Assembly (NCBI RefSeq): GCF_020905295.1
Contig: NZ_JAJJMM010000001.1
Coordinates: forward strand, 4,154,001 to 4,218,000
From: Flavobacterium piscisymbiosum
GTDB lineage: Bacteria > Bacteroidota > Bacteroidia > Flavobacteriales > Flavobacteriaceae
Direction: 5' to 3'
DNA length: 64,000 nucleotides
In this document: positions 18,999-33,143 of the stretch, one piece after another
Position numbering within the stretch: the stretch's first letter is position 1
Layout: each line of letters opens with the position of its first letter
Made by a program: the position numbers and the translations under genes
Notes under the pieces: model-generated
What the model was told of the DNA's origin: nothing
What the model saw: only the letters and a program-made list of their open reading frames with translations
The model's database searches: none

Positions 18999-19006
18999 CA
19001 AAGATG
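18999..19006 (-). promoter_or_regulatory. -7-like element of the MBL operon
   Basis: The minus strand reads CATCTTTG, five of six conserved positions of TAnnTTTG. Its last base lies 37.5 bp from the centre of the palindrome at 19029-19044, the same geometry as at the tautomerase promoter (28343-28350). Confidence 0.5.
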
Positions 19007-19028
19007 AAACGAAATGAGATCTTAAAAC

Positions 19029-19044
19029 ATTAAACTAGTTTAAT
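19029..19044. promoter_or_regulatory. Shared palindromic operator, site 1 (MBL operon)
   Basis: ATTAAACTAGTTTAAT is a perfect 16-bp palindrome. The same core TTAAACTAGTTTAA occurs at 28259-28274 and 33128-33143, and a 14/16 variant at 30006-30021. Its position relative to the -7 element fits a class II activator site near -41.5. The binding protein is unknown; Crp/Fnr-type genes lie at 19060, 21877 and 30850. Confidence 0.65.
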
Positions 19045-19059
19045 AAATAAAGGGAAATC

Positions 19060-19641
19060 TTATTTTTTAACAGCAATTTTCTTTCGAATATTACTCAGGA
19101 AAACATTGGTAATGCCCAAATAAGCAGCTATTTGTATGTTAGAAAGTCGTTGAATAAGGTGTGGGTATTTTTCTATAAATTCGATATAACGGGATTCTGC
19201 TGTTTTACTAAGGTTATCTATCATTCTTCGTTGAAGTGCAACGTGCGTTTTTTGTGTCATTACCCGAAATAGCTTTTCGATTTCAGGTAAGTTGGCATAA
19301 GCAAACTCCTTATCTTTTTTAGAAATTACAAGTACTTCGCTGTCTTCGAGAGCTTCTATAAAAAGTTGTGATGGCACTTCATTAGTAAAACTGTCAATAT
19401 CAGTAATCCACCAATTTTCAATAGCAAAATAGAGTATTTGCTCAAAACCATTTTTATCAATATGATAAACCCGAAAAAGCCCTTTGGTAACAAAACCTTC
19501 AAATTTACAAATCTCACCTTCTCTGAGTAAAAAGTTTTTTTTAGGGATTAACTTTTGCTCAAATAAATTGCAAAAATTTTCTATTTCATTTTCTGAAAGA
19601 GAAATATGTTTAGCGATATTTTGTTTTAAAAGCGCTTTCAT
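19060..19641 (-). CDS. Crp/Fnr family transcriptional regulator
   Basis: This 193-residue regulator has an N-terminal cyclic-nucleotide-binding-type jelly roll (FLLREGEICKFEGFVTKGLFRVY, core LREGEICKFEGFVTKG at residues 39-54) and a C-terminal helix-turn-helix (SNIQIAAYLGITNVFLSNIRKK, core IAAYLGITNVFLSNIRKK). It has no Cys cluster of the Fnr type. It lies just upstream of the MBL operon on the same strand; the palindrome at 19029 sits between the two and could be its site. Its effector is unknown. Confidence 0.87.
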   Translation of the reverse strand: MKALLKQNIAKHISLSENEIENFCNLFEQKLIPKKNFLLREGEICKFEGFVTKGLFRVYHIDKNGFEQILYFAIENWWITDIDSFTNEVPSQLFIEALEDSEVLVISKKDKEFAYANLPEIEKLFRVMTQKTHVALQRRMIDNLSKTAESRYIEFIEKYPHLIQRLSNIQIAAYLGITNVFLSNIRKKIAVKK

Positions 19642-19907
19642 ATAACAGTATGTAAAAGTGTTGCTAAAATATTTCTTTGCCTGAGCTAAGGTACATAAAT
19701 ATGTAATTAAGCTATTGATTTTGACAAAGGATAATACATTTCAATACCTTATAGAAGACTTCTTAAAACAAATCAGTTTATATTATCCTACTATCATTTA
19801 GTATTTTAACTCAATAGTTTAATTATATAAAATTTGACTGATATGGGTTAAGAAAATTATGCAGACAGAGACCTTTAGTAAAAAAGATATAAATTGTTTC
19901 AACTTAT

Positions 19908-20543
19908 TTATTGGGCTTTTGTAAGCGACATTTTAATTGCCAAAGCGGTCAAAACTCCAGCCATAAACCATTTTTGTATTTTTACCCAAACCGGATTATT
20001 TGAAAAGAAAACGGAAACTTTTGATGCCGTTAAAACGATTATAAAATTAACACTAAAACTCACTATGATTTGAGTAATACCTAATTGAATACTTTGAGTA
20101 AAAATAGAACCATATTCAGGTTTTATGAATTGCGGAAAAAAGGATAAATAAAAAACGGCAACTTTTGGATTCAAAACATTGGTTAGAAAACCGATTCTGA
20201 ATAATTTGCCTGGTTTATCTGGTGATAAATTATTCGGGGTTTCAAAAATTCCCTTACTATTTGGTTTTATGGCTTGAAACGCTAAATACAAAAGATAAAC
20301 AACTCCAATTGTTTTTAGAATGGTATAAGCTATTGGTACGGCAAAAAGAATAGCTGTCAGACCAAAAGAAACCATAGTAATGTGAAATAAAAAACCACAA
20401 ATTACTCCGGCAAGCGATATTATACCTGCTTTTTTTCCCTGTGTAATGGAACGTGAAATCAAATAAAGCATATTTGGACCTGGGCTAATGACCAGTACAA
20501 ATGCGGCTAGTGAGAAAAGTAAAATTTCATTAAAAGGTATCAT
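19908..20543 (-). CDS. LysE family exporter
   Basis: This 211-residue inner-membrane protein has about six TM segments and the N-terminal LysE/RhtB signature (FALAAFVLVISPGPNMLYLISRS is the region; core SPGPNMLYLISRSITQGKK, about residues 20-38). Members export amino acids or related metabolites. It stands alone between two intergenic regions. The substrate cannot be told. Confidence 0.87.
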   Translation of the reverse strand: MIPFNEILLFSLAAFVLVISPGPNMLYLISRSITQGKKAGIISLAGVICGFLFHITMVSFGLTAILFAVPIAYTILKTIGVVYLLYLAFQAIKPNSKGIFETPNNLSPDKPGKLFRIGFLTNVLNPKVAVFYLSFFPQFIKPEYGSIFTQSIQLGITQIIVSFSVNFIIVLTASKVSVFFSNNPVWVKIQKWFMAGVLTALAIKMSLTKAQ

Positions 20544-20797
20544 GTTTTATCGTTTATAAATTAAATTTGAAATACTTTTTTAAGTACTTCTGGTTAAAAA
20601 TATAGATTCTTAACCAGAAGATTACTTACTAAGATTTTGATTTTATCAGGTTATATACTAACATTTTTTGACTTTATCCAGTTAAGGAATTAGAATTGCC
20701 TTATAAATTTTAGTGCAAAAACGGTATAAAACTACGAAAGTTTAATTTATTATCTAGGCTCAACTTGCACAAAACCGATGCTAATTACATAGTGTTC

Positions 20798-21814
20798 TTA
20801 TAGGTTTGAATGCTGTTGGTTTTCTTGTAAGTACAACATTGCTTCTTTGACTGCTTGTATTGTGTTTTTGGGATGAAAACCCAATTCAGTTCTCGCTTTT
20901 GTGATGTCGAAGTTTTGTTGAAGTCCTGAAAACATGGCGATATCTTTGATGCTCAATAAGGGAGCTTTTCCATTTATCTTACTGCCAATTTCCATAAACC
21001 AGGCAATGGTAAATAATATTGGTTTTGGAACTGCCATAGGAAGTTTTATTTTCAAGTCTGGAAATAACTCCTGTGCAATTTGTGTTGTCTCTTTTATAGA
21101 AGTGCATTTTTCATTTGCCAGGATATAACGTTCGCCGTTTTTTCCTTTTGTTGCTGCTAAATAACAACCTTGAGCAACATCTTTTACATCAATCCAATCT
21201 AAAGTGATGTTTGTTTCAACGGGTATTTGCTTTTCGAGAATCAAAGAAATAATATTATAAGAAACACTTAAAGGTTTGAAAGCGGTGCTGCCAATCATTG
21301 CAGATGGTAAAACGGCAACCAATTCTATATTGTGCTTTCGGGACAATTCAAAAGCTAGTTTTTCGCCATCATTTTTTGAATTGTAGTACATATCCCTACG
21401 GTCAGGATTTTGTCCGTAACTCTCTTTAGTAGGAAGCTTGGAATAGTTTAAAGCTGCAATAGAACTTACGTACACAATTCGTTTTACACCTGCTTCTGCT
21501 GCGGCTTCAACAATATTTTTGGTACCTTGAATATTGACATCATAAATTTCTTTTTTGGGGTCTTTGGCCCAAAGTTTAAAGACTGCTCCAACTGCGTAAA
21601 ATGTTTCTACACCTTGTAAAGCGTTTACTAAGGACTGTTTATCGGAAATATCAGATTGTACGACTTCACAATTTAAGCCCGTAAAAGGTTCTTTATTTTT
21701 GATGTTGCGAACCGAAGCTCTTACCGGAATACCTTTGCTGATAAGCAATCTTACCAAGTTGTTGCCAAGATGCCCATTTGCTCCTGTAACCAATGCTAAA
21801 TTTTTCTGTGCCAT
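20798..21814 (-). CDS. NAD-dependent epimerase/dehydratase (dihydroflavonol reductase-like SDR)
   Basis: This 338-residue extended-SDR protein has the Rossmann motif VTGANGHLGNNLVRLL (residues 9-24), a substrate-side YYNSKNDGEK (Tyr-x3-Lys-like, about residues 143-152, here Y-N-S-K) and later GERYILANEK. It resembles dihydroflavonol-4-reductase and cholesterol-dehydrogenase-like bacterial proteins that reduce aldehydes or ketones with NAD(P)H. It is cytoplasmic. Its gene lies head-to-tail behind a Crp/Fnr gene (62 bp away), which may regulate it. Confidence 0.83.
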   Translation of the reverse strand: MAQKNLALVTGANGHLGNNLVRLLISKGIPVRASVRNIKNKEPFTGLNCEVVQSDISDKQSLVNALQGVETFYAVGAVFKLWAKDPKKEIYDVNIQGTKNIVEAAAEAGVKRIVYVSSIAALNYSKLPTKESYGQNPDRRDMYYNSKNDGEKLAFELSRKHNIELVAVLPSAMIGSTAFKPLSVSYNIISLILEKQIPVETNITLDWIDVKDVAQGCYLAATKGKNGERYILANEKCTSIKETTQIAQELFPDLKIKLPMAVPKPILFTIAWFMEIGSKINGKAPLLSIKDIAMFSGLQQNFDITKARTELGFHPKNTIQAVKEAMLYLQENQQHSNL

Positions 21815-21876
21815 TTTATTTGTTTTTATTATGGCACAAAATTGGGATATGATTTTTTTAAAATGCTTCGCAAATG

Positions 21877-22452
21877 TTACCTAATCATTTGCTTCCTGAT
21901 TCTGCTCAAACTTTTTGGGTTCATTCCTAAAAACGAAGCAATGTATTGAAGAGGAACATTGTGTATAATTTCAGGATAATTCTCAACCAACTTTTTATAA
22001 CGCTCTTCTGCCGTTAAGGTTGCTAAATCTTTTGAGCGGTTTTCGTTGTATGTAAGGGATTGCTCAAACACCCACATACTAAAATCTTTAAATGACGCAC
22101 TACTTTGAAGAAGAAAATCCAAGTCAGTTTTTGCAATTCTCAAAAGTTCACATTCAGTAATACATTCTACATTTTCATTAGATTTTGTCTGGTTGATAAA
22201 ATTGGTATAAGAAGTAAAAAAACCTGGCGGACAGTTGATATGGGTGGTAACTTCATCTCCTAAATTATTGTAATAAAACAGTCTCATAAAACCCGACAGG
22301 ACAAAGTAAAGATATTTAGGGACTTTACCCTCTTCTTCAATAATCCGATTTTTAGGAAATAATACTGGTTCAAAATACTTTTTACATAGTTCTTTGTCCG
22401 GGTCAGTAAGTACAATTTTAGTACTTATCAGGTTCAATAATTGGTCGTGCAT
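21877..22452 (-). CDS. Crp/Fnr family transcriptional regulator
   Basis: This 191-residue protein has a cNMP-binding-type N-terminal domain (IIEEEGKVPKYLYFVLSG, residues 37-54) and a C-terminal helix-turn-helix (IASFLGMNPKSLSRIRKQ). It precedes the SDR gene on the same strand and is a plausible regulator of it. No effector residues can be named. Confidence 0.85.
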   Translation of the reverse strand: MHDQLLNLISTKIVLTDPDKELCKKYFEPVLFPKNRIIEEEGKVPKYLYFVLSGFMRLFYYNNLGDEVTTHINCPPGFFTSYTNFINQTKSNENVECITECELLRIAKTDLDFLLQSSASFKDFSMWVFEQSLTYNENRSKDLATLTAEERYKKLVENYPEIIHNVPLQYIASFLGMNPKSLSRIRKQMIR

Positions 22453-22844
22453 TTACTAATATTAGAATATCTGTTACTTTTTAGTCTATTTGATTGATTG
22501 GCGCTAACGTTCCTGCTATTGGGAGGGTTGCATATTTAATAACGAAGTATTTTCTACCAAGCGAAAATACGATTAATATTATTAAACTTAAGTTGATCAT
22601 TATAATTTGTAATTAATTCTACTCTAAAGTATTGTTAGTAATAGTCTAATGTTTTGTTGATCATGTTACGAAGTTCATAAAGTTATTGATTACAAGAAAA
22701 AGTTATTAAACAATCTATTTGAATTAAAAGAAACCATCTTAACTTTTTGTGGCAAATTTTAAGGCAGTTCCATAAAGGTCATGTTAAGTTTATTCAATAA
22801 TAATTAAAGAATGTTTTTTTTCGTAAACCTTATGATCCTGGATA
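22453..22844. other. Intergenic region, no gene seen
   Basis: The 392-bp AT-rich stretch between the Crp/Fnr gene and the amidohydrolase contains a GC-richer patch near 22500-22570 that looks like degraded repeat DNA, but no second copy is present in the window. I see no coding frame or terminator hairpin that I can defend. Confidence 0.35.
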
Positions 22845-24179
22845 TTATTTGTCAAGTATATTTTTATAAGTGATTCCATCTTTTATAATCAACAATAATA
22901 TTTTGTCATAATCTTCCATTATACTTAAATTTAGCATAGGATTTCCATCTACTAATAAAAGGTCGGCATAAGCACCTTCTTCTATAACACCCAATTTGTT
23001 AGGATAGGGATTGCGTGGTCCGCTCATGGCAAGTAATTCTGCATTTGTAGATGTAGCCATTTTTAATATTTCATAAGGCTTGTACCAGCGTAACAACTTT
23101 ACAAGATCTCCTGCTCTTTTTGCCGAATGCTCAGGCTCAAAAAGACAATCCGTTCCAAAGGCAGTTTTAATATTATATTTTTTTGCAAAATTGTAGGCTT
23201 TATCAGTACCGCTCATCATAGTTTGTTGTTTTATACGGTTTGGTGAACCATCAGCATAAAGGCTTTTGCCGTCATCTATAAAAGGTTGCAGACTTAACCA
23301 TGCCTTTTTATCTGCTAACATTTTTGCTGTTGTATCATCAATAAGTTGAGCATGATCTATACAACGCACTCCTGCACGTAAAGCAGTTTGTATGGCTCTT
23401 GGTGTATAGGCGTGAACGGTGACATACGTACCCCAGTTTTCTGCTGCGTCAACTGCAGCTTTCATTTCTGCTTCTGTAAATTGAGATACATCTAAAGGAT
23501 CATAAGTTGAAGAAACGCCACCACCAGCCGCTAATTTTATTTGTGTGGCACCAAGGCGAAGTTGTTCCCGCACACGTTTCAGGACTTGGTCTGCACCGTC
23601 TGCTATAACACCGAAATTATTACGTTCTGTAAAATCAAGGCTTGCCGCCAAATCTCTTGGAACAGCATTAGGAGTTAGAAAGTCTCCATGACCTCCGGTT
23701 TGGGAAATCATAGCGCCTGAAGGATAAATACGTGGACCAATTATTAAGCCTCTGTCAATAGCCTTTTGTAATCCTCCGGCAGGACCGGCAAGATCTCTGA
23801 AAGTTGTAAAGCCCTGCATTAGGTCTTTTTCTGCAGATTTAATAGCATTTGCAGTAATGTATTCTATATCACTATTCATCAATTCCATAACACCCATCGA
23901 TTCCATCATGATATGCGTATGGGCATCAATAAGGCCTGGCATTAAGAATTTTCCTTTGCCATCAATAATAGTAGTATTTGTGCTTTTATCAGTTGGTATT
24001 GGTGATGTAGAAATTTTACTAATCAGATTATTAACAATCAAAATATTTCCCTTAGTTGTTTTTTCATCCTTACCATTAAAAATTTCAACATCGTTGATGA
24101 GAATTGTTTTTTGAGTCATTCCATAAAATGAACTCAGTAAAATTGCCATGACCAATAATTTTCGTTTTATAGGATACAT
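22845..24179 (-). CDS. Exported amidohydrolase (imidazolonepropionase/Xaa-Pro dipeptidase-like)
   Basis: This 444-residue metal-dependent hydrolase has a Sec signal. The metal motif DAHTHIMME (HxH near residue 87), a Lys in QIKLAAGGG that would be carboxylated, His in VTVHAYTP and DHAQL, and the Asp in AFGTDCLFEP are all present, so the active site looks complete. Members of this branch cleave C-N bonds in cyclic amides or dipeptides. It stands alone on the minus strand, divergent from the DUF1254 gene; the natural substrate is unknown. Confidence 0.85.
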   Translation of the reverse strand: MYPIKRKLLVMAILLSSFYGMTQKTILINDVEIFNGKDEKTTKGNILIVNNLISKISTSPIPTDKSTNTTIIDGKGKFLMPGLIDAHTHIMMESMGVMELMNSDIEYITANAIKSAEKDLMQGFTTFRDLAGPAGGLQKAIDRGLIIGPRIYPSGAMISQTGGHGDFLTPNAVPRDLAASLDFTERNNFGVIADGADQVLKRVREQLRLGATQIKLAAGGGVSSTYDPLDVSQFTEAEMKAAVDAAENWGTYVTVHAYTPRAIQTALRAGVRCIDHAQLIDDTTAKMLADKKAWLSLQPFIDDGKSLYADGSPNRIKQQTMMSGTDKAYNFAKKYNIKTAFGTDCLFEPEHSAKRAGDLVKLLRWYKPYEILKMATSTNAELLAMSGPRNPYPNKLGVIEEGAYADLLLVDGNPMLNLSIMEDYDKILLLIIKDGITYKNILDK

Positions 24180-24696
24180 ATCTAGAGGGGTGTTTTGAAG
24201 TTATAGTACTAATATAGTAAATGTTATATTATTTTATTGATTTTTAGTGAGATATTAATCAGGGTATTAGCTTATTTAAAACAACAGAAAAAAGGTCAAT
24301 TTTGAAGATATATTTTTGGTGTAAAAAAAGTATTTGCATCTTGTTGTTTGATTCTAAAAAAGAAAATAAAAGCAAAACGAGTCAAACTCACACATTTAGT
24401 ATCTGTCTTTCATTGACTTTATAAATTTGGTTTGGATAGCTTGTCGTTTCCAATTATTAATACTAGAGTATTATTAAAAACATCAATTAAGTTAAAATGA
24501 AATTTCTTTTTGTCCTCTGTTTGGTTTCATTTTATAAAATGAAACGTATTTGTTAAGCTATAAATCTATCCTTGTCAATCAATTGGGTAAATTTATTTAA
24601 GAAACAATTTTCATAAAATAAAAAAGACAGAAACTCCTGTAAACCTTGAATAACAAGCCCTTTATAAGTTTATCATAAAATAAAAAATCAAAAAAG
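24180..24696. other. Divergent intergenic region with a repeat fragment
   Basis: This 517-bp stretch separates the amidohydrolase and DUF1254 genes and must hold both promoters. Positions 24403-24437 match 47999-48033 at all but two positions and are a fragment of the decayed dispersed element. No coding frame is supported. Confidence 0.55.
24403..24437. repeat. Fragment of the decayed dispersed element
   Basis: This 35-bp stretch differs from 47999-48033 at two positions. The longer copy at 47928-48061 follows a terminator-like hairpin; this one does not. Confidence 0.6.
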
Positions 24697-26184
24697 ATGA
24701 AAAAGAAAATATTTACATTTAGCACATTGACATTTATAGTGATTAGCCTGATTTCCTCCTGTAAAAAAGAGGTCAAAGAGAACGACACAGCTGTTGTAAA
24801 AGAAAGTGATTCTGTTAAAACGGAAATTATTTCAGGGCCGATACCCAATACCAATATGACGCCAGAATATATTAAAACATTATCAGCTAATATTTATTTA
24901 TGGGCATGGCCAATGGTTAATATGCATAATCGTAAATTGATGTTTGAAAAAGTACCCTATCCGGTGCTAGGTAAGGGAATACTTCCTCTTTCTTCAATTA
25001 ACCATATTGCAATGCTTACCGATTACGTTGATGCCGAAGAAAGAGAGGTTGCATGTCCTAATCAGGATGTTGTTTACGGACTGGCACCATTAGATTTAAC
25101 TAAAGACGCTGTTATTGTGCAGGTGCCTGATTTTGGAGATCGTTTTTGGGTTTATCAGGTTTGTGATCAGCGCACAGAAGGTTTTGCTAAACTTGGAAAA
25201 ATGTACGGTAGTAAGCCGGGATTTTATCTGTTAACGAGCAGCGACTGGAAAGGTAAGGTTCCTGATGGAATCAACGCTGTATTTAAATCAACAACTACAT
25301 TTAATGTAGTGATTCCGCGTGCTTTCCAATCTGATGATCCAAGCGATAAAAAAGCTATTCAGCCTTTGATTAGTCAGATAAATGTTTATCCATTAGCAGA
25401 TTTCGATGGAAAAATGAAAAAAGTAGATTACTCAAAATTGCCTAAAACTCCAGCTGATAAAGTAGTAGCAAAACAAGAAACACAATGGGTAAAACCAGAA
25501 CTATTTTTTGACCAGCTTTCAACTGTTTTAAAAGAAGTTCCTCCGCTTAAAGGCGAAGAAGTTTGGTACGCTCAAGTACAATCATTTTTGGATGCCATTA
25601 ACAAAGATCCTAAGCTAAAGGCAATTGCAAGACAATCAGCAATAGATTCTGAAAAAAATCTCATAAAACCTTTGTTTCAATTTGAAAATGTAGGATATCC
25701 GGTGAAATTTAATTGGACCACACAAAAAAATGGAGCGCAGTTTGGAACCGATTATTTAACTAGAACTGCGTGTGCCAAATCAAACATATTTGTAAACAGA
25801 TCAATTGAATCTAAATATTTTTATCAGGATTTTGATTCCACAAGAACTAAATTATCAGGTGCTAATAAATACACCATTACTTTTGCAAAAGGACAAACCC
25901 CACCTGTAAAAGGATTTTGGTCACTTACCCTTTATGACGAACACCACTTTTTTGCATCAAATGAGCTCAAACGTTACTCTTTAGGAACAAAAAACAAGAA
26001 TTTAAAATATAATGCCGATGGCTCACTAACGCTGTATGTGCAAAATTCCAAACCAGATAGTGATAAAATCGACAATTGGCTTCCTGCTCCAAAAGGCACT
26101 TTTTCTTTATATGTAAGGTGTTATTGGCCTGAAGAAAAAACTTTAAAAGATGAATGGAGTCCGCCGGCAGTTATCAAAACTTAA
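24697..26184 (+). CDS. DUF1254/DUF1214 lipoprotein
   Basis: This 495-residue protein has a lipoprotein signal (IVISLISSCKKEVKE) and the two-part DUF1254-DUF1214 architecture. The DUF1254 part includes NIYLWAWPMVNMHNRKL and QDVVYGLAPLDLTKD; the C-terminal DUF1214 part includes PPVKGFWSLTLYDEHHFF and NWLPAPKGTFSLYVRCYWPE, quoted here as separate pieces. The family's function is unknown despite wide distribution. It is exported and single. A terminator at 26298-26343 separates it from the convergent DUF417 gene. Confidence 0.87.
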   Translation: MKKKIFTFSTLTFIVISLISSCKKEVKENDTAVVKESDSVKTEIISGPIPNTNMTPEYIKTLSANIYLWAWPMVNMHNRKLMFEKVPYPVLGKGILPLSSINHIAMLTDYVDAEEREVACPNQDVVYGLAPLDLTKDAVIVQVPDFGDRFWVYQVCDQRTEGFAKLGKMYGSKPGFYLLTSSDWKGKVPDGINAVFKSTTTFNVVIPRAFQSDDPSDKKAIQPLISQINVYPLADFDGKMKKVDYSKLPKTPADKVVAKQETQWVKPELFFDQLSTVLKEVPPLKGEEVWYAQVQSFLDAINKDPKLKAIARQSAIDSEKNLIKPLFQFENVGYPVKFNWTTQKNGAQFGTDYLTRTACAKSNIFVNRSIESKYFYQDFDSTRTKLSGANKYTITFAKGQTPPVKGFWSLTLYDEHHFFASNELKRYSLGTKNKNLKYNADGSLTLYVQNSKPDSDKIDNWLPAPKGTFSLYVRCYWPEEKTLKDEWSPPAVIKT

Positions 26185-26297
26185 TTTTATAAGTTCAAAA
26201 AATAAAATTATCTCCGTTGTAAATTTTCTAAAGATGAGCCACAAAGATTTTATATTTTCTGGACAAGAACAATTTTAAATCATATAATAAGTTTATC

Positions 26298-26343
26298 AAA
26301 AAAGCTACCAGTCATTATATTATAAATGATTGATAGCTTTTTT
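26298..26343. terminator. Bidirectional terminator
   Basis: AAAAAAGCTA (26298-26307) pairs with TAGCTTTTTT (26334-26343); further imperfect pairing lies inside the loop. It separates the convergent DUF1254 and DUF417 genes. Confidence 0.75.
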
Positions 26344-26380
26344 GAATTGATAATTTTAAGGTTTTTTTTGAATCTTAAAT

Positions 26381-26947
26381 TTATATATTTTTTCTTTTGA
26401 GATAAAGTGATGCTGACTGGCTCATTGTAATTAATGAGGCTCCAAGTATAACAATATCTTTAAGCACTAATCGTCCGCGCCCTGATAAATAAGGAAATCC
26501 ATATTGTTGATCTGTCAAATGCGGTACCCAGCTTTCAGGGGTTGTCACTAAAAATGAAAGTGTACCAAGAGTAAGAATAAATACCAGTATACTACCAAAC
26601 ATACTTGCCAGAGGAGCCCAGTTATGAATGGCAACCAGAAAAGCGATACCAATTAATAAAATTCCTAAGCCATTTGCAAAAACATAGGTATTGTTTTGAA
26701 TGTTCCATTGATGATTTTCGGTAATCAGTTCACCTTCTTTATTGCTGTATTGTTTATAATCAGATGGATTGTTATAGAAAAAAGACATAAAAGGACTGTT
26801 TGCCACAAAAGGCACTATTCCATCAGCTTCATAGGTGAAAAATTTAAGTCCGCCAATCCATAAAAAAACGATTACGATACTGGCACGTATGGCATTTTTT
26901 CCCAGATTATCAAGATTTGCTATTGTGTTTAAAAGAGAATTTTTCAT
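26381..26947 (-). CDS. DUF417 (YkgB-like) membrane protein
   Basis: This 188-residue protein has four TM segments. Conserved YkgB/DUF417 features are SIVIVFLWIGGLKFFTYEADGI (core WIGGLKFFTYEADGI), PFVANSPFMSFFY near the N-terminus, and TLSFLVTTPESWVP followed by LSGRGRLVLKDIVILGASL, quoted in parts. In other bacteria these genes often respond to chlorine or aldehyde stress through AraC or Rrf2-type regulators. An AraC gene lies just upstream on the same strand. A -7 element TAAATTTG is at 26991-26984. Confidence 0.87.
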   Translation of the reverse strand: MKNSLLNTIANLDNLGKNAIRASIVIVFLWIGGLKFFTYEADGIVPFVANSPFMSFFYNNPSDYKQYSNKEGELITENHQWNIQNNTYVFANGLGILLIGIAFLVAIHNWAPLASMFGSILVFILTLGTLSFLVTTPESWVPHLTDQQYGFPYLSGRGRLVLKDIVILGASLITMSQSASLYLKRKNI

Positions 26948-26983
26948 TGCTTTGTTTTTAAATATTAGTAATAATTAACAAGG

Positions 26984-26991
26984 CAAATTTA
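26984..26991 (-). promoter_or_regulatory. -7 element of the DUF417 gene
   Basis: The minus strand reads TAAATTTG, an exact TAnnTTTG match, 37 bp before the ATG at 26947. It supports separate transcription from the AraC gene upstream. Confidence 0.5.
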
Positions 26992-27030
26992 GAGCTGAAA
27001 TAAGAATTAAGAAATGGATAAAAAATGCTA

Positions 27031-27879
27031 TTACTTAGACAAATCTGCCACAATAGAGATACCAGTTGTTTTCCTGAAGGTTTGAGGAGAAACTTTTGTG
27101 TTTTTTTTAAATACCCGACTGAAATAATATTCATCCTGAAATTTTAGGACATAAGCAATTTCCTTAATACTTAATCGGGTAAGGTGAAGTTGTTTCTTTG
27201 CTTCCAAAATTAATCTTTCCTGAATCATTTGAGTGGGCGTTTTATTAAAACGTTTATTGCATTGTTTCGTGAAGTTATTTGCAGTCATTGAAAGTAATGT
27301 AGCATAATCACTCGCTTTATGAAGGGTTAAGAAATTTTCTTCCAGCAATATTTTAAACTGGTCCATCTTTTCATCTTTTTTAAAATTTTGTTTATCACTA
27401 TTTATTTTCAGACTGCTCGATTTGGCCAGTATCAATTGAAGATAAGATCTTAATACAATTTCTGAAGGAGTTGGCTGTTTAATCTCATCAATAATATGAT
27501 CAACTAACACACAATATAATTGATGTTGTTCGGTACTTAATTTTATGGAGGGTTCAGCATAAATATTATTAAATAGTAAGCCATTGCAGGCAACTTCATT
27601 TCTATGGTATTCAATGCAGTAAAAATCACCGTGAAATTGTAATGTCGTGTAGTTTACCGGTTTGATTTCGCTAATGGAAATTGATTGCTGTGGTGTCGAA
27701 AATAATATTGCCGGAGCTTTAAATGCAAACGATGCAAAATCGACATGATAAATTCCTTCTCCTTTACTTATCAATAAGATAGTATATTCTCCAAATTGTA
27801 AAGGGGTATTGAATACATTAATTTCAGATTTTTCTATTCCTAAGAGTAAGGTACCATTTTCTGAAATTACTTTGTTCAT
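27031..27879 (-). CDS. AraC family transcriptional regulator
   Basis: This 282-residue protein has an N-terminal cupin-like sensor (LLISKGEGIYHVDF, residues 31-44) and a C-terminal AraC double helix-turn-helix (LSIKEIAYVLKFQDEYYFSRVFKK, core IAYVLKFQDEYYFSRVFK). It lies upstream of the DUF417 gene in the same direction and is its likely regulator. On the other side it faces the tautomerase gene across 534 bp. Confidence 0.87.
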   Translation of the reverse strand: MNKVISENGTLLLGIEKSEINVFNTPLQFGEYTILLISKGEGIYHVDFASFAFKAPAILFSTPQQSISISEIKPVNYTTLQFHGDFYCIEYHRNEVACNGLLFNNIYAEPSIKLSTEQHQLYCVLVDHIIDEIKQPTPSEIVLRSYLQLILAKSSSLKINSDKQNFKKDEKMDQFKILLEENFLTLHKASDYATLLSMTANNFTKQCNKRFNKTPTQMIQERLILEAKKQLHLTRLSIKEIAYVLKFQDEYYFSRVFKKNTKVSPQTFRKTTGISIVADLSK

Positions 27880-27970
27880 GTTGCAGGGAGTTGGATTATG
27901 TAATTGTAAATTTAGAGAATGAATTCTTGTTATTCATTATTATTACGATACTTATTTTAAAAAAATTAAG

Positions 27971-28049
27971 ATAAACCGAAAGAGAAAAAATCCTTTATCC
28001 CTAATGAGATTTCGAACTATCGTTCAGTTTCGGTTAAATCTGCAATAAT
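27971..28049. repeat. Dispersed repeat, copy B
   Basis: This stretch resembles 5845-5920 behind tRNA-Arg and 33233-33285. The shared features are GATAAACC followed by an A-rich block and TTTCGAAC. It fills part of the 534-bp gap between the AraC and tautomerase genes, together with the operator sites at 28259-28319. No hairpin-TGAC block follows this copy. Confidence 0.55.
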
Positions 28050-28258
28050 TCACTTTTAAACCTTAATACCCACATATCCTTTTGTCCTTATTTAAGGAGC
28101 GGTTGCAGGCGGTGGATTTTTACCCTTGATACAAAACTAATAAAAGGAGCATCAATTAACTTGGATTTAAAATCAATAAAATGTTCCAACTGACCTTCTT
28201 CGCCTATGATGACCCGGGCAAATATTTTATAAATTTAGATATTGTCACCTATGATAAT

Positions 28259-28274
28259 CTTAAACTAGTTTAAG
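28259..28274. promoter_or_regulatory. Shared palindromic operator, site 2a (tautomerase promoter)
   Basis: CTTAAACTAGTTTAAG is a perfect 16-bp palindrome, identical to 33128-33143. It is the most distal of three sites whose centres (28266.5, 28289.5, 28312.5) are spaced by exactly 23 bp. Confidence 0.7.
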
Positions 28275-28282
28275 AATTACTG

Positions 28283-28296
28283 TTAAACTAAATTAA
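28283..28296. promoter_or_regulatory. Shared operator, site 2b (degenerate)
   Basis: TTAAACTAAATTAA matches the consensus TTAAACTAGTTTAA at 12 of 14 positions. Its centre is 23 bp from both neighbouring sites. Confidence 0.55.
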
Positions 28297-28305
28297 GTAT
28301 ATTTC

Positions 28306-28319
28306 TTAAACATGTTTAT
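28306..28319. promoter_or_regulatory. Shared operator, site 2c (proximal)
   Basis: TTAAACATGTTTAT contains a perfect TAAACATGTTTA palindrome. Its centre lies 37.5 bp from the last base of the -7-like element at 28343-28350, as at the MBL promoter. Confidence 0.55.
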
Positions 28320-28342
28320 AAGCAGCAACGGCAGATATGTTG

Positions 28343-28350
28343 CAATTTTG
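28343..28350 (+). promoter_or_regulatory. -7-like element of tautomerase operon
   Basis: CAATTTTG matches five of six conserved positions of TAnnTTTG. It is 63 bp before the tautomerase ATG and in fixed register with the three operator-like sites upstream. Confidence 0.45.
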
Positions 28351-28413
28351 TATAACAAATTTACTGCTTGAAAATCAGCATAAAAAAATAATAAACCTTA
28401 AATAAAAAATAAC

Positions 28414-28635
28414 ATGCCACACGTAAATGTAAAAATGTACCTAGGAACTTCTGAGGAACAAAAAGAAAAAATTGCACAGGAAATTACTGCTGTAATTATG
28501 AAGCACACAGGCAAACCTGAAGCAGCCGTTTCTATCGCCATAAGTGAAGTTGCTGAAGATGTTTGGATGCAACAAGTATATGATAAAGAAATAAAGCCAA
28601 ATATGGAAAAGCTTTATAAAAAACCGGGATATTAA
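28414..28635 (+). CDS. 4-oxalocrotonate tautomerase family protein
   Basis: This 73-residue protein begins Met-Pro-His; after removal of Met, Pro1 would be the catalytic base of the tautomerase superfamily. The middle MKHTGKPEAAVSIAISEV and WMQQVYDKEIKP fit the PptA/4-OT-like branch. Members catalyse keto-enol tautomerisation or related reactions on small acids. It is followed 23 bp later by a SnoaL-like gene, so the two are likely co-transcribed from the operator-rich promoter upstream. Confidence 0.87.
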   Translation: MPHVNVKMYLGTSEEQKEKIAQEITAVIMKHTGKPEAAVSIAISEVAEDVWMQQVYDKEIKPNMEKLYKKPGY

Positions 28636-28658
28636 TATTCAGATCAAATGCTGAAGTA

Positions 28659-29078
28659 ATGAAAAATGCAGCTATGAATTACACAAAAGAAAAAGAAGCA
28701 ATTAGTACATTTCTGGGCAATTTTACTCAGGTACTAAATAATGGAGAAACAAACGCTATTGCTGATTTTTTTGATCGTGAGGCTATTTTTATTCCAGATG
28801 GGATGAAGAAGATTATTGGTGCTAATCAATTAGGGAAAACCGGCAATGGCTATCTTAAACGCACTGATTTTAAAATTGGCTACGCAATAGAAAGCATTAC
28901 AATAGAGAATCAATTTGCCTTTATAGAAGCTTTTGCTGCTACCACAGAAAATCGAATTTCGGATTTAAAGCCTGTACCAAAAAGAAGTATCGATTTTTTT
29001 GTTCTAAAAAAGGAAAATGAAAATTGGAAAATTTATCGCTACATATTCAACAATGTAAGAGAACTGGAAGTAATGTAA
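28659..29078 (+). CDS. SnoaL/DUF4440-like protein
   Basis: This protein of 139 residues (or 134 if translation starts at the second ATG, 28674) has one NTF2-like domain: ISTFLGNFTQVLNNGETNAI, FFDREAIFIPDG, and the closing ENWKIYRYIFNNVRELE. It has no signal peptide. It lies directly behind the tautomerase gene, suggesting both act on one small-molecule pathway. No catalytic residues can be assigned. Confidence 0.72.
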   Translation: MKNAAMNYTKEKEAISTFLGNFTQVLNNGETNAIADFFDREAIFIPDGMKKIIGANQLGKTGNGYLKRTDFKIGYAIESITIENQFAFIEAFAATTENRISDLKPVPKRSIDFFVLKKENENWKIYRYIFNNVRELEVM

Positions 29079-29100
29079 AGCATTAAAAAATGGTTGATAA

Positions 29101-29134
29101 AAAAAGGCAACCTAAAATATTAGGTTGCCTTTTT
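29101..29134. terminator. Bidirectional terminator
   Basis: AAAAAGGCAACCTA pairs perfectly with TAGGTTGCCTTTTT across a six-base loop. It separates the convergent SnoaL-like and YceI genes. Confidence 0.9.
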
Positions 29135-29157
29135 AAAAAATAATAATTAACTGTTTT

Positions 29158-29832
29158 TTATTTTTTTTCTGCCGTTACATTGATACCAATCTCGATATCT
29201 TTACTGATCATCCATTCTGCAGGATCCGCTTCAGAAGCTCCAAATTTTATATCCCAGTCTGTGCGATTTACAGTAAATTTAGCTTGTAAAGTTGCAGTTC
29301 CGTTCGCTACGGTAACTTTTGCCGGAAAAGTAACATTCACCGCTTTGCCTTTAAGAGTCAGGTTACCGCTTACTGTTTTATTAGCACCTTCCACAGCATC
29401 TTTTGCCGGAGCACCTAGGGCTGTCACACTAGTAATTTTAAAGTCAGCAGTTGGATTTTTTTCAACATCAAAAAAGTCAGCACTTTTTAAGTGAGCTTCT
29501 AATTCTGAATATTTTTTGTCTTTTTCAGTTACAGATGCTGGATCTACTTTAATAGACTGCATGTCAATTACAAAATCACCCGCAGTTAATTCATTAGCTT
29601 CAATCGAAACTTCACCTGATTTAATAGCAAGTGTTCCCCAACGAGGTGCAAAACCTCCTTTATGAAATGCTTTCCAGTCCACTTTAGAGGTTTGAAGATT
29701 TACTGCTAATACTTCTCCCTTTTTTTCGGCAACCTGTTGCTCTTCGCCCGTTGTTGTCTCATTGGAGTTTTTTTTACATGCCGTTATAAATAAAGTAACA
29801 GCTACTAATGTTAATACACTAAATTTTTTCAT
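29158..29832 (-). CDS. YceI family lipoprotein
   Basis: This 224-residue protein has a lipoprotein signal (LVAVTLFITACKKNSNE) and one YceI-like lipocalin domain that binds polyisoprenoid or amphiphilic ligands. Typical family segments are SKVDWKAFHKGGF, the KYSELEAHLKSADFFDVEKNP region (core HLKSADFFDVEKNPTADFK), and VNRTDWDIKFG near the C-terminus. It acts in the periplasm and is transcribed alone. Confidence 0.88.
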   Translation of the reverse strand: MKKFSVLTLVAVTLFITACKKNSNETTTGEEQQVAEKKGEVLAVNLQTSKVDWKAFHKGGFAPRWGTLAIKSGEVSIEANELTAGDFVIDMQSIKVDPASVTEKDKKYSELEAHLKSADFFDVEKNPTADFKITSVTALGAPAKDAVEGANKTVSGNLTLKGKAVNVTFPAKVTVANGTATLQAKFTVNRTDWDIKFGASEADPAEWMISKDIEIGINVTAEKK

Positions 29833-30005
29833 TGTTTACGTTTTAAAAGATTCGTTAATGACTAAATCTTATTTTAATTCAAAGTTCATTGATTAAAAAA
29901 AGAAAGGGTTATACTAATCGGAAATTTAGTTACAATTTAAGGAAAAAATCTACAGTATACCATATCAATTTTTTTTTAAACCGTTTTATGAGGTTAAGCG
30001 TATTT

Positions 30006-30021
30006 CTTAATATAGTTTAAG
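30006..30021. promoter_or_regulatory. Shared operator, site 3 (variant, FMN reductase)
   Basis: CTTAATATAGTTTAAG matches CTTAAACTAGTTTAAG at 14 of 16 positions. It is 164 bp upstream of the FMN reductase start. No -7 element stands at the 37.5-bp distance seen at the other promoters, so this site is less certain. Confidence 0.4.
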
Positions 30022-30092
30022 GGTATACCAGATTTATGAACATTAAACATTTAAATTTATGGAAATTACAGCAGCAATAATAATTGAAAAAT

Positions 30093-30115
30093 TGCCGGGA
30101 GACCGGCATTTTTTT
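30093..30115 (+). terminator. Terminator-like hairpin in the leader of FMN reductase
   Basis: TGCCGG (30093-30098) pairs with CCGGCA (30103-30108) across GAGA, followed by seven T (30109-30115). This is a small but complete intrinsic-terminator shape upstream of the start codon at 30185, so it may attenuate transcription from a promoter near 30010-30050. Confidence 0.55.
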
Positions 30116-30184
30116 GTAAATTACATAGTAAATCAGGCTGTTGAAAATCAGACTGACCGAAAAATTAATATAAAACACGAAATC

Positions 30185-30745
30185 ATGAGCAAAGTAATTG
30201 GTATAATCGCAGGAAGTTTGCGTAAAGAATCGTTTTCAAAAAAATTAGCAAAAGCAGTACAAGATATGGCACCCGAGGGATTTGATTTCAAGATAATCAG
30301 ACTCGATGAATTGCTTGTTTATAATCAGGATTTTGATGATAATAATGAAGTTCCGCCTGCTTATGTAACATTTAGGAATGAAGTAAAGCAGCTTGACGGA
30401 TTTATTTTTATTACACCAGAGTACAACAGATCTGTGCCGGCTGTACTTAAAAATGCGCTAGACATAGGCTCACGCCCGTATGGTAAAAGTGTGTGGGACG
30501 GGAAGCCGGGGGCGATTTTTAGTAATTCTCCGGGAGCTGTTGGTGGGTTTGGTGCAAACCATCATTTAAGACAAAGTCTTGTGTTTTTGAACATTCCCGT
30601 TATGCAGCAGCCAGAAGTTTATCTTGCCAAAATTAATGATGCGTTTGAAGAAAACGGTAGTATTAAAGAAGGCGCAACCAAAGAGTTTATTAAAAAAGCT
30701 GTTGACGCCTTTATAGTTTGGTTTAACCAAAATAAAAACAAATAA
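30185..30745 (+). CDS. NADPH-dependent FMN reductase (NAD(P)H:quinone/azo type)
   Basis: This 186-residue flavodoxin-fold enzyme uses NADPH to reduce FMN, quinones or similar acceptors. The start of the fold is IIAGSLRKESFSKKLAKAV (residues 6-24), and the FMN-binding FITPEYNRSVPAVLKNALD (core PEYNRSVPAVLKN) and PGAVGGFGANHHLRQ are typical. I use ATG 30185, because the longer frame starting at 30059 runs through a terminator-like hairpin and adds residues the family lacks. It is transcribed toward a Crp/Fnr gene 104 bp further on. Confidence 0.86.
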   Translation: MSKVIGIIAGSLRKESFSKKLAKAVQDMAPEGFDFKIIRLDELLVYNQDFDDNNEVPPAYVTFRNEVKQLDGFIFITPEYNRSVPAVLKNALDIGSRPYGKSVWDGKPGAIFSNSPGAVGGFGANHHLRQSLVFLNIPVMQQPEVYLAKINDAFEENGSIKEGATKEFIKKAVDAFIVWFNQNKNK

Positions 30746-30849
30746 GCTCTTGTTTTTTTAGTATTCTTATTAATAAGTAGTAAATGATTTTTAGTTGGAT
30801 TCTGTAAAATACGAGTGACATTTCTTATATTTACTACTTAAAGAATACA

Positions 30850-31461
30850 ATGAATACAGATATAGGATTAGCAGATAAAGGATCTCCGATTGAGCAGTTA
30901 ATTCGTTTTTTCAACGGATATTTTGCTCTTAATGAAAAAGAATGTGAAGAGGTCATTCGGCTTTTTTCGCAAAGAAATATCAGACGAAAAGGATATATCC
31001 TGCAGGAAGGTGATGTTTGCCGACATTACTTTTTTATTATTTCGGGCTGTTTTAAAATGTTTGCAGTAGATCCGGCCGGTAAAGAGCATAATCTTCAATT
31101 TGCAGCGGAAAACGATTGGATAAGTGATCTGCACAGTTTTTATTCCCAAGAACCAAGCCGAATGTATATAGAGGCAATAGAGCCTTCGATTGTACTTCAA
31201 ATCGAACATGACGACTTATTGTACTTATTTATCAATTACCACAAATTCGATCGTAATTTCAGGATTATAACAGAGCGAAAATACATCAATTTTCAAAACC
31301 GAATATTGCAGAATATTAGTTCTACGGCAGAGGAGCGCTATGTTAGTTTCACAAAGCAATATCCGGCAATGATTAATAGAATTCCCAATACACAAATCGC
31401 TTCGTATCTGGGTATTACTCCTGAGTTCCTGAGCAAGATCAGAAAGAAGATTGTTACCTAG
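30850..31461 (+). CDS. Crp/Fnr family transcriptional regulator
   Basis: This 203-residue protein has a cNMP-binding-type N-terminal domain (YILQEGDVCRHYFFIISG, residues 55-72) and a C-terminal helix-turn-helix (TQIASYLGITPEFLSKIRKK). It is closely similar in layout to the regulator at 19060-19641. It lies near the middle of the cluster of genes that share the CTTAAACTAGTTTAAG operator and is one candidate for the protein that binds it. Confidence 0.86.
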   Translation: MNTDIGLADKGSPIEQLIRFFNGYFALNEKECEEVIRLFSQRNIRRKGYILQEGDVCRHYFFIISGCFKMFAVDPAGKEHNLQFAAENDWISDLHSFYSQEPSRMYIEAIEPSIVLQIEHDDLLYLFINYHKFDRNFRIITERKYINFQNRILQNISSTAEERYVSFTKQYPAMINRIPNTQIASYLGITPEFLSKIRKKIVT

Positions 31462-31487
31462 TCTTACTTTTTTATTATTGACATCTC

Positions 31488-32165
31488 TTATTGTTGTTTA
31501 TCTATAACAAGATCTTTAAAGAAACCTTCTGTTCCTATGTCTACAAAAAGGCCGATGGCACCTATGGCATCTTTCCCTAATTTAAGATCATTTACAATCA
31601 AAGAAGGTTCTTTGCGCCCGTCCAAATATAGTTTTGCCTGTTGCTGCCTCACTACGATTTTAATAGATATCCATTTGTCAAGTTCCATTTCCTGGTATGA
31701 TTCATAAACTCCTGGAGCAGTTTTTCTGCTGTCAGTAAATTTAAAATCAGGATAAGCAAAGTATTGTGTCGAGCGATTTCTGCGCAGCTGATCCTCTGCC
31801 ATAGCATTTGCCGGCCTGATATATATAGCTTCAAATTTAGAATCATCCTCATTAATGTGAAAAGCTACGCCAATGAATCCGCGTGCGTGGGAAGGAGCAT
31901 TTTTTAAAATTTTGCTTAATACTTTAACTTCGATAATTCCCTGAGTAAATTCAAGATCCCTGATTCTGGCATAAGTAGGTTCATCATCTAAAACTATAGT
32001 GGAATCTTTAACTACCCTTAAGGCTTTACTGCCCAGTATTTTATTTTCGGAAATGTAGCTGCCTACCGCGCTGATATTGTTTTGGTCAAGCTTGATTTTT
32101 TGGCCAAAAAAAATAAATGGGCTAAATAACAGCAGTACAATAGCATATTTTGAAATACTTGTCAT
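31488..32165 (-). CDS. Exported concanavalin-like (DUF1080-type) protein
   Basis: This 225-residue protein has a Sec signal (IVLLLFSPFIFFGQK) and one jelly-roll domain resembling 3-keto-disaccharide hydrolase/DUF1080 or LamG-type folds: DLEFTQGIIEVKVLS, GFIGVAFHINEDDSKFEAIY, KWISIKIVVRQQQAKLYLDG, and a closing GAIGLFVDIGTEGFFKDLVI. No catalytic residue is certain. It is the second gene of an operon, 18 bp behind an exported alpha/beta hydrolase, and may bind or process the same extracellular compound. Confidence 0.65.
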   Translation of the reverse strand: MTSISKYAIVLLLFSPFIFFGQKIKLDQNNISAVGSYISENKILGSKALRVVKDSTIVLDDEPTYARIRDLEFTQGIIEVKVLSKILKNAPSHARGFIGVAFHINEDDSKFEAIYIRPANAMAEDQLRRNRSTQYFAYPDFKFTDSRKTAPGVYESYQEMELDKWISIKIVVRQQQAKLYLDGRKEPSLIVNDLKLGKDAIGAIGLFVDIGTEGFFKDLVIDKQQ

Positions 32166-32183
32166 CTTTATTAGTACTCTGTA

Positions 32184-33050
32184 TTAATGTTTTAAAAAAT
32201 AGTTGACCGTTGGCCATGCTACGGCCCATTTTTCCAAAAAAGCAGCATGACCGGCACCAGGAATGACACTCAGCTGTCCTTTTGGAATAAATTTAGAAGC
32301 ATATTCGGCATGTTCAACAGTAATAAAATTGTCATGATCACCGACCATTACCAATACGGGACATTTAATGGTGCTGAATAGCTTTTCATCGGCGACAAGT
32401 TTGGTATTAAATTCTTCCTGAACGCGAGTAAAGAGTTCCTGGAGTCTTTTAGGATCTGGCATTAGAGCGAGCTGCTGATCCCAAAATGGCTTGTCCAGTT
32501 CTAAAGCCTGTTTTACGGTAATAGCATTTGGCTGGTCTCCGGGATGTCTTTCTCCGGCACCTATTACCACTAATTTTTTGACTTTTGAAGGATAAAGACT
32601 CGCAAGCATGTAACCTGTATAACCACCGTCGCTAAAACCTATCACTGTTGCGCTATCTTTTGTTACGGCATTTAATACATTTGCCGCATCGTTTGCTTTT
32701 AGCTGATAGGTATGAGGCTGGTTTCCCAGTTCTGATTTTCCATGTCCTCTTGTAGAAATGGCTATTACCTGATGATTAACCCTTAGACTGTCAATGAAAT
32801 GGTACATTTCAAAGGTAGAGCCGAATATTCCTCCATGCAGGACTACAACGGGTGTTCCGTTGCCATAAATTTCATAATAGATCTTTGCATCGTCAGATGT
32901 TATGTAATGGCCTGCTGTTGCATTGTTGCCGTACGGAGTGGTGTTTAGAGGTGCGGCAATTGACTGAAGCGCATAACGCATCGTTTTTGCCTGCTGTGCG
33001 TATAACGATGCAGTGAAAATTATAATTGCCGATAGAAATAAATTTTTCAT
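32184..33050 (-). CDS. Exported alpha/beta hydrolase
   Basis: This 288-residue hydrolase has a Sec signal (MKNLFLSAIIIFTASLYAQQ). The oxyanion region is VVLHGGIFGS, the nucleophile elbow GFSDGG (Ser), and the catalytic His is in PGAGHAAFLEKW near the C-terminus, so the triad looks complete. It heads an operon with the DUF1080-type gene. Its promoter carries a perfect copy of the shared palindrome (33128-33143) and a degenerate one 23 bp nearer the gene. Confidence 0.85.
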   Translation of the reverse strand: MKNLFLSAIIIFTASLYAQQAKTMRYALQSIAAPLNTTPYGNNATAGHYITSDDAKIYYEIYGNGTPVVVLHGGIFGSTFEMYHFIDSLRVNHQVIAISTRGHGKSELGNQPHTYQLKANDAANVLNAVTKDSATVIGFSDGGYTGYMLASLYPSKVKKLVVIGAGERHPGDQPNAITVKQALELDKPFWDQQLALMPDPKRLQELFTRVQEEFNTKLVADEKLFSTIKCPVLVMVGDHDNFITVEHAEYASKFIPKGQLSVIPGAGHAAFLEKWAVAWPTVNYFLKH

Positions 33051-33074
33051 AAAATTGATTTAATATATATCGTG

Positions 33075-33082
33075 CAAATTTC
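33075..33082 (-). promoter_or_regulatory. -7-like element of hydrolase operon
   Basis: The minus strand reads GAAATTTG, five of six conserved positions of TAnnTTTG, 25 bp before the ATG. The centres of the two operator-like sites are 37.5 and 60.5 bp from its last base. Confidence 0.45.
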
Positions 33083-33104
33083 GCACTCAAAATACTATAC
33101 GAGC

Positions 33105-33120
33105 AATAACATACTTTAAT
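33105..33120. promoter_or_regulatory. Shared operator, site 4a (degenerate)
   Basis: AATAACATACTTTAAT matches ATTAAACTAGTTTAAT at 12 of 16 positions. Its centre is 23 bp from the perfect site at 33128-33143 and 37.5 bp from the -7-like element, which is the same spacing as at the tautomerase promoter. Confidence 0.45.
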
Positions 33121-33127
33121 AAAAAAC

Positions 33128-33143
33128 CTTAAACTAGTTTAAG
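33128..33143. promoter_or_regulatory. Shared palindromic operator, site 4b
   Basis: CTTAAACTAGTTTAAG is a perfect palindrome identical to 28259-28274, located 78 bp upstream of the hydrolase start codon. Confidence 0.7.

Follow-up and report, generated by a model that had tools for sequence, protein, structure and literature searches.

The closest described systems are FNR and CRP of Escherichia coli. The FNR site (TTGATNNNNATCAA) has a 5-4-5 layout and FNR proper carries four cysteines for its 4Fe-4S cluster, while at class II promoters of CRP the site is centred at about -41.5. Matsui et al. (2013) are said to have surveyed CRP/FNR target motifs, and the PDB entry 3dn7 is presumably a protein of Cytophaga hutchinsonii. 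Within the Bacteroidota, CrpPg of Porphyromonas gingivalis, a Crp homologue, is reported to bind DNA without a ligand and to act as a global regulator, according to the accessible part of the article (PMC12040651). Our literature searches returned no paper for the operator strings and no site of this kind for Bacteroidota Crp/Fnr proteins, with subscription journals thinly covered, and an earlier description is possible.

Here, we analyzed a 64,000-nucleotide stretch of the Flavobacterium piscisymbiosum genome (assembly GCF_020905295.1, contig NZ_JAJJMM010000001.1, positions 4,154,001 to 4,218,000 of the forward strand; hereafter the window), in which the 14-bp palindrome TTAAACTAGTTTAA stands at the promoters of an MBL-SnoaL, a tautomerase-SnoaL and an alpha/beta-hydrolase operon (Table 1). 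Judging from sequence, these palindromes are very probably class II activator operators of two paralogous Crp/Fnr-type dimers, 19060 and 30850, encoded a few kilobases away. An earlier sequence-only reading had proposed a dimeric activator of this type with the same two candidate genes, and this proposal is well supported by adjacency, co-occurrence, fixed geometry and matched differences between recognition helix and site.

The palindrome and its distance from the -7 box

The window contains three exact copies of TTAAACTAGTTTAA, found by string search, and a fourth copy with two mismatches, all in intergenic DNA, which bears out the earlier statement that the copies lie upstream of genes and never inside them. 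The 16-mer reported in that reading stands as regards its core, exact at three places, and has to be shortened otherwise, as the full CTTAAACTAGTTTAAG is present at only two of the three, positions 19029-19044 reading ATTAAACTAGTTTAAT. No further exact copy was found in the genome (6,487,610 bases), so that all three fall within 14.1 kb of the window, and none occurred in any of 100 dinucleotide shuffles of the window. A genome-wide search with up to two mismatches, which the sequence-only reading had recommended, gave 119 copies per strand compared with 237 for the reversed control; such copies are thus common genome-wide, and the fourth copy or looser ones carry no weight on their own. Loose matching is also of no use within the window, since no excess was detected there at up to three mismatches (18 copies, 16.0 expected).

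From the end of the palindrome to that of the TTTG in the -7 box, the distance at the MBL loci is 31 bp (at times 30 bp). The centre spacings of 37.5, 60.5 and 83.5 bp noted earlier agree with this, the proximal sites of the MBL and tautomerase promoters lying at 31 bp and the exact site of the hydrolase promoter at 54 bp (31 + 23). The geometry was also scored by a motif-blind scan, in which the palindromicity of the 14-mer ending d bases before each TTTG downstream of crp was recorded. The crp regions were taken by similarity to 19060 among the matches listed, with distant paralogues under-sampled. Across 128 distinct loci (40% identity or more to either 19060 or 30850), dyads with at least six of seven pairs were found in 35 at d = 31 and in 15 at d = 30, as against 0 to 3 at each of the other 30 values and, upstream of crp, 0 to 3 throughout. 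Among the 23 loci that are more distant, five had such a dyad at d = 30, one at d = 31 and three at d = 35. Named loci from several Bacteroidota classes (the best 80 of 126, overlapping with the genus set described below) gave 65 at 31 and 6 at 30, and never more than 4 at one of the remaining 43 values. Moreover, a weight matrix of symmetric form was trained on the very loci that it counts, with operator-free loci kept in the denominators. Of 151 crp loci, it assigned a downstream operator to 97, compared with 3 upstream and a mean of 3.25 (maximum 8) at wrong offsets.

In the 96 promoters with an operator, the base at -12 was C in 51 and T in 29, and most had an ATTT(C/A) stretch on the 5' side of the operator. 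The TAnnTTTG box of Flavobacterium psychrophilum is placed at -12 to -5 in the accessible part of its description (PMC9723704), and combining this position with a spacing of 30 to 31 bp puts the operator centres at -42.5 or -41.5. With the box position so borrowed, the predicted sites lie where class II sites lie, and a 14-bp palindrome beside crp genes has the size and symmetry of a Crp/Fnr operator.

To describe the palindrome in relatives, we used a genus set of 299 genomes, drawn from a larger group and including the source genome (G000). Exact copies of TTAAACTAGTTTAA were present in 24 of the 298 other genomes (28 copies in total), and one 3-kb locus was fetched per genome (24 of the 28 copies). 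A homologue of 19060 lies beside the exact palindrome in 18 of these 24 loci. In each of the 18, crp comes first, then the palindrome and then the next gene, all oriented alike. An extra gene stands between crp and palindrome in L018, L025, L028 and L033 (DsbA-like by eye in the first three). These four loci carry a further operator copy directly after crp (TTAAACTACTTTAA; TTAAAATAGTTTAA in L025). Orthologues of 19060 with at least 78% identity were found in 19 of the 299 genomes, among the matches listed, and the exact motif occurred in 16 of these 19 genomes but in only 9 of the other 280 (Fisher p = 1.4e-17, a value that ignores kinship). The remaining three carry the variant TTGAACTTGTTCAA at the same place and spacing, together with a different recognition helix. 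An MBL-SnoaL-crp module with a Flavobacterium-type helix and exact TTAAACTAGTTTAA was also observed in Sphingobacterium alkalisoli (L227), which belongs to another class of the phylum, and this module looks like an acquisition by gene transfer.

Two candidate regulators and their putative recognition helices

Both proteins match PF00027 (cyclic-nucleotide-binding fold) above its cut-off of 27.5 bits, with 36.4 bits for 19060 and 50.6 bits for 30850, and phmmer aligned residues 5-189 of 19060 with PDB 3dn7 (E = 3.3e-37). Scores against the NCBIfam FNR model (28 bits for 19060, 28.6 for 30850; cut-off 228) and CRP model (20.7 and 21.8 bits; cut-off 266) fell below the cut-offs. The Crp-type helix-turn-helix (HTH) models of Pfam gave no match at E ≤ 1, and 19060 had only sub-cut-off matches to HTH_6 and GerE; by eye, its segment GITNVFLSN resembles a recognition helix. 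The only cysteines of 19060 are C24 and C45, so an FNR-type cluster is not expected and the protein does not qualify as an FNR. Across 79 named rows, C45 was present in 79 and C24 in 81%, and E75, W77, W78, D81, S84 and F85 were invariant.

Tandem sites seem to mark the clade of 30850. The MBL promoter has one site and the tautomerase promoter three, at 23-bp steps. At the hydrolase promoter, the distal site described earlier was confirmed and a degenerate proximal one, missed at the time, was added; the two-site layout recurs in G175, G079 and G235, with the exact site at 54 or 53 bp and the proximal one recognized by eye. In 18 loci, crp is nearer to 30850 (at least 48% identity); nine of them have a well-scored operator, eight of these nine have a second site at -23, and a further tandem locus of the clade (L196) falls below the score limit. 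Outside the clade, tandem sites were scored in 1 of 87 operator-bearing loci (L045). Close orthologues of the hydrolase (at least 77%) and of 30850 (at least 83%) share one and the same set of 4 among the 299 genomes, where they are neighbours, and the tautomerase (at least 84%) occurs in three of these four; beyond them, hydrolases at 49-53% occur in six genomes and crp genes at 53-63% in ten. In addition, L036 has a 30850-like crp, two sites 23 bp apart without a usually spaced TTTG, and then a gene resembling 31488 of the window, an order that ties the 30850 clade to the hydrolase operon.

Related regulators appear to have related palindromes, whose third base tracks one residue of the recognition helix, though on few independent events. 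Among the 79 named loci, the third base of both halves is A (TTA..TAA) in 26 of 26 with helix N and G (TTG..CAA) in 46 of 47 with helix H, the last having no site; four Chryseobacterium GVTP proteins are siteless and two rows could not be typed. In 95 rows of the genus set, N or P goes with A and H, Q or A with G, five rows having unlike halves. A tree test found the association exceptionless in the 90 rows bearing both traits; it omits these five, and one of the 96 operator rows (L084) was dropped because its helix is off the search pattern. L255 and L264 are suggestive of a helix-site code: their target MBL protein is 90-91% identical to that of the window, yet both the helix of the regulator and the operator belong to the other type. 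Against such a code stand the five unlike-half rows and L047, whose helix has Pro and whose dyad is TTGATC, not a scored operator. The sorting residue aligns by eye with Arg180 of E. coli CRP, one of the base-contacting residues Arg180, Glu181 and Arg185 named in the accessible part of PMC12531629.

From these observations we infer binding, activation rather than repression, the assignment of regulators to promoters and the signal. Each half-site (TTAAAC) would take one recognition helix of the dimer, and a dimer bound at the proximal operator, centred at about -42, would replace the -33 element and recruit RNA polymerase to a weak -7 box. MBL-SnoaL would be turned on by Crp 19060 through the single perfect site just 3' of the crp gene itself, and Crp 30850 would turn on tautomerase-SnoaL and the hydrolase from arrays of two or three sites with a 23-bp period, perhaps cooperatively. 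The single regulon envisaged earlier would probably be split into two overlapping circuits, one formed by 19060 and its lone MBL site and the other by 30850 and its tandem arrays. The names of the genes are compatible with a role in stress or detoxification; as a weak guess from gene content and the invariant Cys45, the signal might be an electrophile or oxidant sensed through that residue.

Fourth site, other promoters and mapped features

The fourth site has an identical counterpart (TTAATATAGTTTAA) in G079 and G235; in both, this copy precedes the FMN reductase region at the usual 31 bp to the end of a TTTG, and a partner site is present at -23. The gene that comes next in G079 encodes a zinc-type dehydrogenase (L201 10247-11359, by eye), with the FMN reductase after it; in G235, the end of a similar dehydrogenase gene is visible. 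In the window, 24 surrounding bases are identical to those of the relatives, a TTTG at the 31-bp spacing was looked for and is missing, and frame 30059 starts MEITAAI like the G079 dehydrogenase before entering the stretch ahead of the FMN reductase (30059-30185), where the remainder of that gene is absent. By these features the fourth site is genuine by descent, and its promoter, having lost the -7 box and most of the gene served in relatives, looks truncated. The site listed in the sequence-only reading is therefore kept, on the strength of the congener sites, and the FMN reductase promoter ascribed to it becomes doubtful; the true start of the reductase is likely 30185. The three-way alignment around the site is out of register, and the comparison rests on strings read directly.

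The genome has 22 Crp/Fnr matches. Allowing three mismatches, the motif is exact beside 19060, and the two-mismatch copy at 30007 lies upstream of 30850; ten of the other crp genes have copies with two or three mismatches, mostly without a correctly spaced TTTG, and ten have none. A wider promoter-spaced pattern, TTAANNTANNTTAA, occurs at nine places in the genome compared with five for its control, and five of the nine read TTAATCTA(GG, GA or AA)TTAA, preceded by TTTC and followed at 31 bp by TTTG. This sister set shares with the window sites the 31 bp to TTTG and the preceding TTTC, and differs in being spread over five dispersed promoters; the genes downstream, judged by eye from protein starts, are VOC-like, YceI-like, pirin-like (two) and alpha/beta hydrolase-like. 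In congeners, the sister-set palindrome follows crp genes with the helix GVTPEFFSKM. The crp of this type in the source genome, at 2,158,778, is about 6 kb from two sister sites and has no scored operator after its own gene.

In the region 20798-22452, a third Crp/Fnr gene (21877) is followed by an epimerase gene with a weak dyad, GTAACATTTGCGAA (21867-21880), 30 bp ahead of where a TTTG ends; the plan may be the same, with a different operator. Distant paralogues in L049 and L050 (source genome) and L060 are followed by the different dyads AGGACATTTGTCCT, TTGACATTTGTCAA and, weaker, TCAACATATGTAAA at 30-bp spacing. The best NCBIfam match of the MBL-fold hydrolase, under the cut-off, is NF040580 (Vmh family). 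The hydrolase operon had been described with a DUF1080 gene (31488), presumably the old name of the 3-keto-disaccharide hydrolase family.

Table 1. Predicted operators, -7 boxes, target genes and candidate regulators (positions in the window unless a genome position is given)
Feature	Position	Strand	Basis
MBL-SnoaL predicted operator, perfect palindrome TTAAACTAGTTTAA, single copy	19030..19043	-	sequence; same site and spacing beside orthologous congener crp genes
TTTG of -7 box (CATCTTTG), MBL promoter, ends 31 bp after operator	18999..19002	-	
MBL-fold hydrolase, target operon gene 1	18081..18971	-	PF00753
SnoaL-like protein, target operon gene 2	17626..18087	-	PF12680
Crp/Fnr-type regulator 19060, best candidate reader of MBL operator	19060..19641	-	PF00027; 3dn7 relative; adjacency and co-occurrence
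Distal predicted operator, tautomerase promoter, perfect palindrome	28260..28273	+	
Middle predicted operator TTAAACTAAATTAA, tautomerase promoter, 23 bp on from distal	28283..28296	+	
Proximal predicted operator TTAAACATGTTTAT, tautomerase promoter, ends 31 bp before end of TTTG	28306..28319	+	
TTTG of -7 box (CAATTTTG), tautomerase promoter	28347..28350	+	
Tautomerase (4-oxalocrotonate tautomerase-like), target operon gene 1	28414..28635	+	PF01361
SnoaL/DUF4440-like protein, gene 2	28659..29078	+	sub-cut-off family match; 61-62% identical neighbour in two congeners
Fourth site TTAATATAGTTTAA, two mismatches to core	30007..30020	+	identical operator in two congeners
Crp/Fnr-type regulator 30850, best candidate reader of tautomerase and hydrolase arrays	30850..31461	+	PF00027; co-occurrence
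Hydrolase operon gene 2, weak similarity to 3-keto-disaccharide hydrolase	31488..32165	-	PF06439 E=0.016, below cut-off
Alpha/beta hydrolase, target gene	32184..33050	-	PF00561
TTTG of -7 box (GAAATTTG), hydrolase promoter	33075..33078	-	
Proximal degenerate predicted operator TTAAAGTATGTTAT, hydrolase promoter, ends 31 bp before TTTG end	33106..33119	-	site in same place in three relatives (by eye)
Distal predicted operator, alpha/beta-hydrolase promoter, perfect palindrome, ends 54 bp (31+23) before TTTG end	33129..33142	-	
Sister-set promoters, TTAATCTAGGTTAA-type	G000:C1 198808, 2152000, 2152965, 3528002, 4007914		L290-L292, L295, L296

Alternative explanations and known systems

The identity of the three exact sites, and the fact that both clades have members beside exact TTAAACTAGTTTAA, would also fit one regulator, 19060 or 30850 alone, reading all sites of the window while the other paralogue has different targets. 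We consider this unlikely, as G175 keeps the exact hydrolase site and 30850 although its best match to 19060 is only 59% identical and adjoins TTGAACTAGTTCAA, as, among the 19 genomes in which 19060 has an orthologue at 78% identity or more, only three (G000, G079 and G235) belong to the four with a close 30850 orthologue, and as the architectures differ, single in one case and tandem in the other. Repression by the same proteins is improbable: a site near -42 could also hinder the polymerase, but repressor sites usually vary in position, and both the fixed 30 to 31 bp to the -7 box before non-homologous targets and the C or T at -12 in most promoters fit dependence on an activator. For a binder of another family, such as the AraC-type proteins 27031 or 34706, or for an unknown protein, there is very little room; 27031 is transcribed away from the tautomerase array, but in several Bacteroidota classes the site stands after crp homologues, and it varies with their helix. 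AraC was rejected, since the divergent AraC-like protein at the tautomerase locus of two congeners is only 24% identical and the array is kept there. Chance or a dispersed repeat element can practically be dismissed. AT-rich palindromes are indeed common at two or three mismatches, but exact copies are absent from the shuffles and from the rest of the genome, on which ground a repeat element was rejected, and the site is conserved at the same promoter position in relatives, which counts out chance.

Several observations weigh against class II activation by 19060 and 30850, the reading that we prefer. By count, the motif does not stand out: the reversed control of the exact core is present in more congener genomes than the core itself, and promoter-spaced TTAAACNNNNTTA occurs at two places in the genome, both in the window, compared with nine for its reversed control. 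Further members are thus not found, nor is there enrichment by count, the evidence being that of position and conservation, and the regulon of the sequence-only reading gives way to a set that looks local rather than genome-wide, with exact copies and promoter-spaced TTAAACNNNNTTA found only in the window. The counts in relatives are not independent either, because orthologous loci share descent, and crp is absent from the 3-kb locus in 6 of the 24 (L021, L027, L029, L032, L035 and L037; L027 is the orthologue of the window hydrolase promoter). The weight matrix scored no operator in 54 of the 151 crp loci, nor, among the named loci, is there one beside the four Chryseobacterium GVTPESLS proteins. 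Eight of the 18 loci of the 30850 clade lack a scored operator, including window 30850 and its three closest orthologues, which have none 3' of their own gene. Tandem dyads are not confined to that clade, as L045 has them and, in L023 and L047, a proximal site with a low score is accompanied by a perfect dyad at -23. The C-termini of 19060 and 30850 have no Pfam HTH match reaching the cut-off. Finally, the helix-base association requires only two changes on the tree (one or two independent pairs), so it carries no significance and the code is not separable from shared descent.

Whether the arrangement is general in the phylum is, in our view, an even question. The Bacteroidota may hold large sets of Crp/Fnr one-component modules built on one plan (regulator, own palindrome, promoter at fixed spacing, target operon), with a helix-operator code (Asn or Pro with TTA; His, Gln or Ala with TTG) and one clade with 23-bp tandem arrays. 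The fixed geometry would make operator, promoter and first target gene readable from sequence for many Crp/Fnr proteins, and if the code is true, targets and operators of many uncharacterised regulators could be assigned from sequence alone. The geometry also offers testable swaps of helix and operator and, possibly, small activator-promoter pairs for Flavobacterium genetics.

Compared with known systems, the predicted sites resemble those of E. coli FNR and of CRP at class II promoters in their 14-bp symmetry, the 5-4-5 layout of FNR and a centre near -41.5, and the proteins share the cyclic-nucleotide-binding fold. They differ in that 19060 and 30850 score far under the NCBIfam FNR and CRP cut-offs, the -7 box is the Bacteroidota TAnnTTTG, and the operator often lies directly 3' of the regulator gene. 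The structure 3dn7, listed as 'Cyclic nucleotide binding regulatory protein', belongs to the same family as 19060, and its listing names no operator or target. CrpPg, like 19060 and 30850, is a Bacteroidota Crp homologue; it is described as a global regulator, and the word palindrome is absent from the accessible text of its article (PMC12040651).

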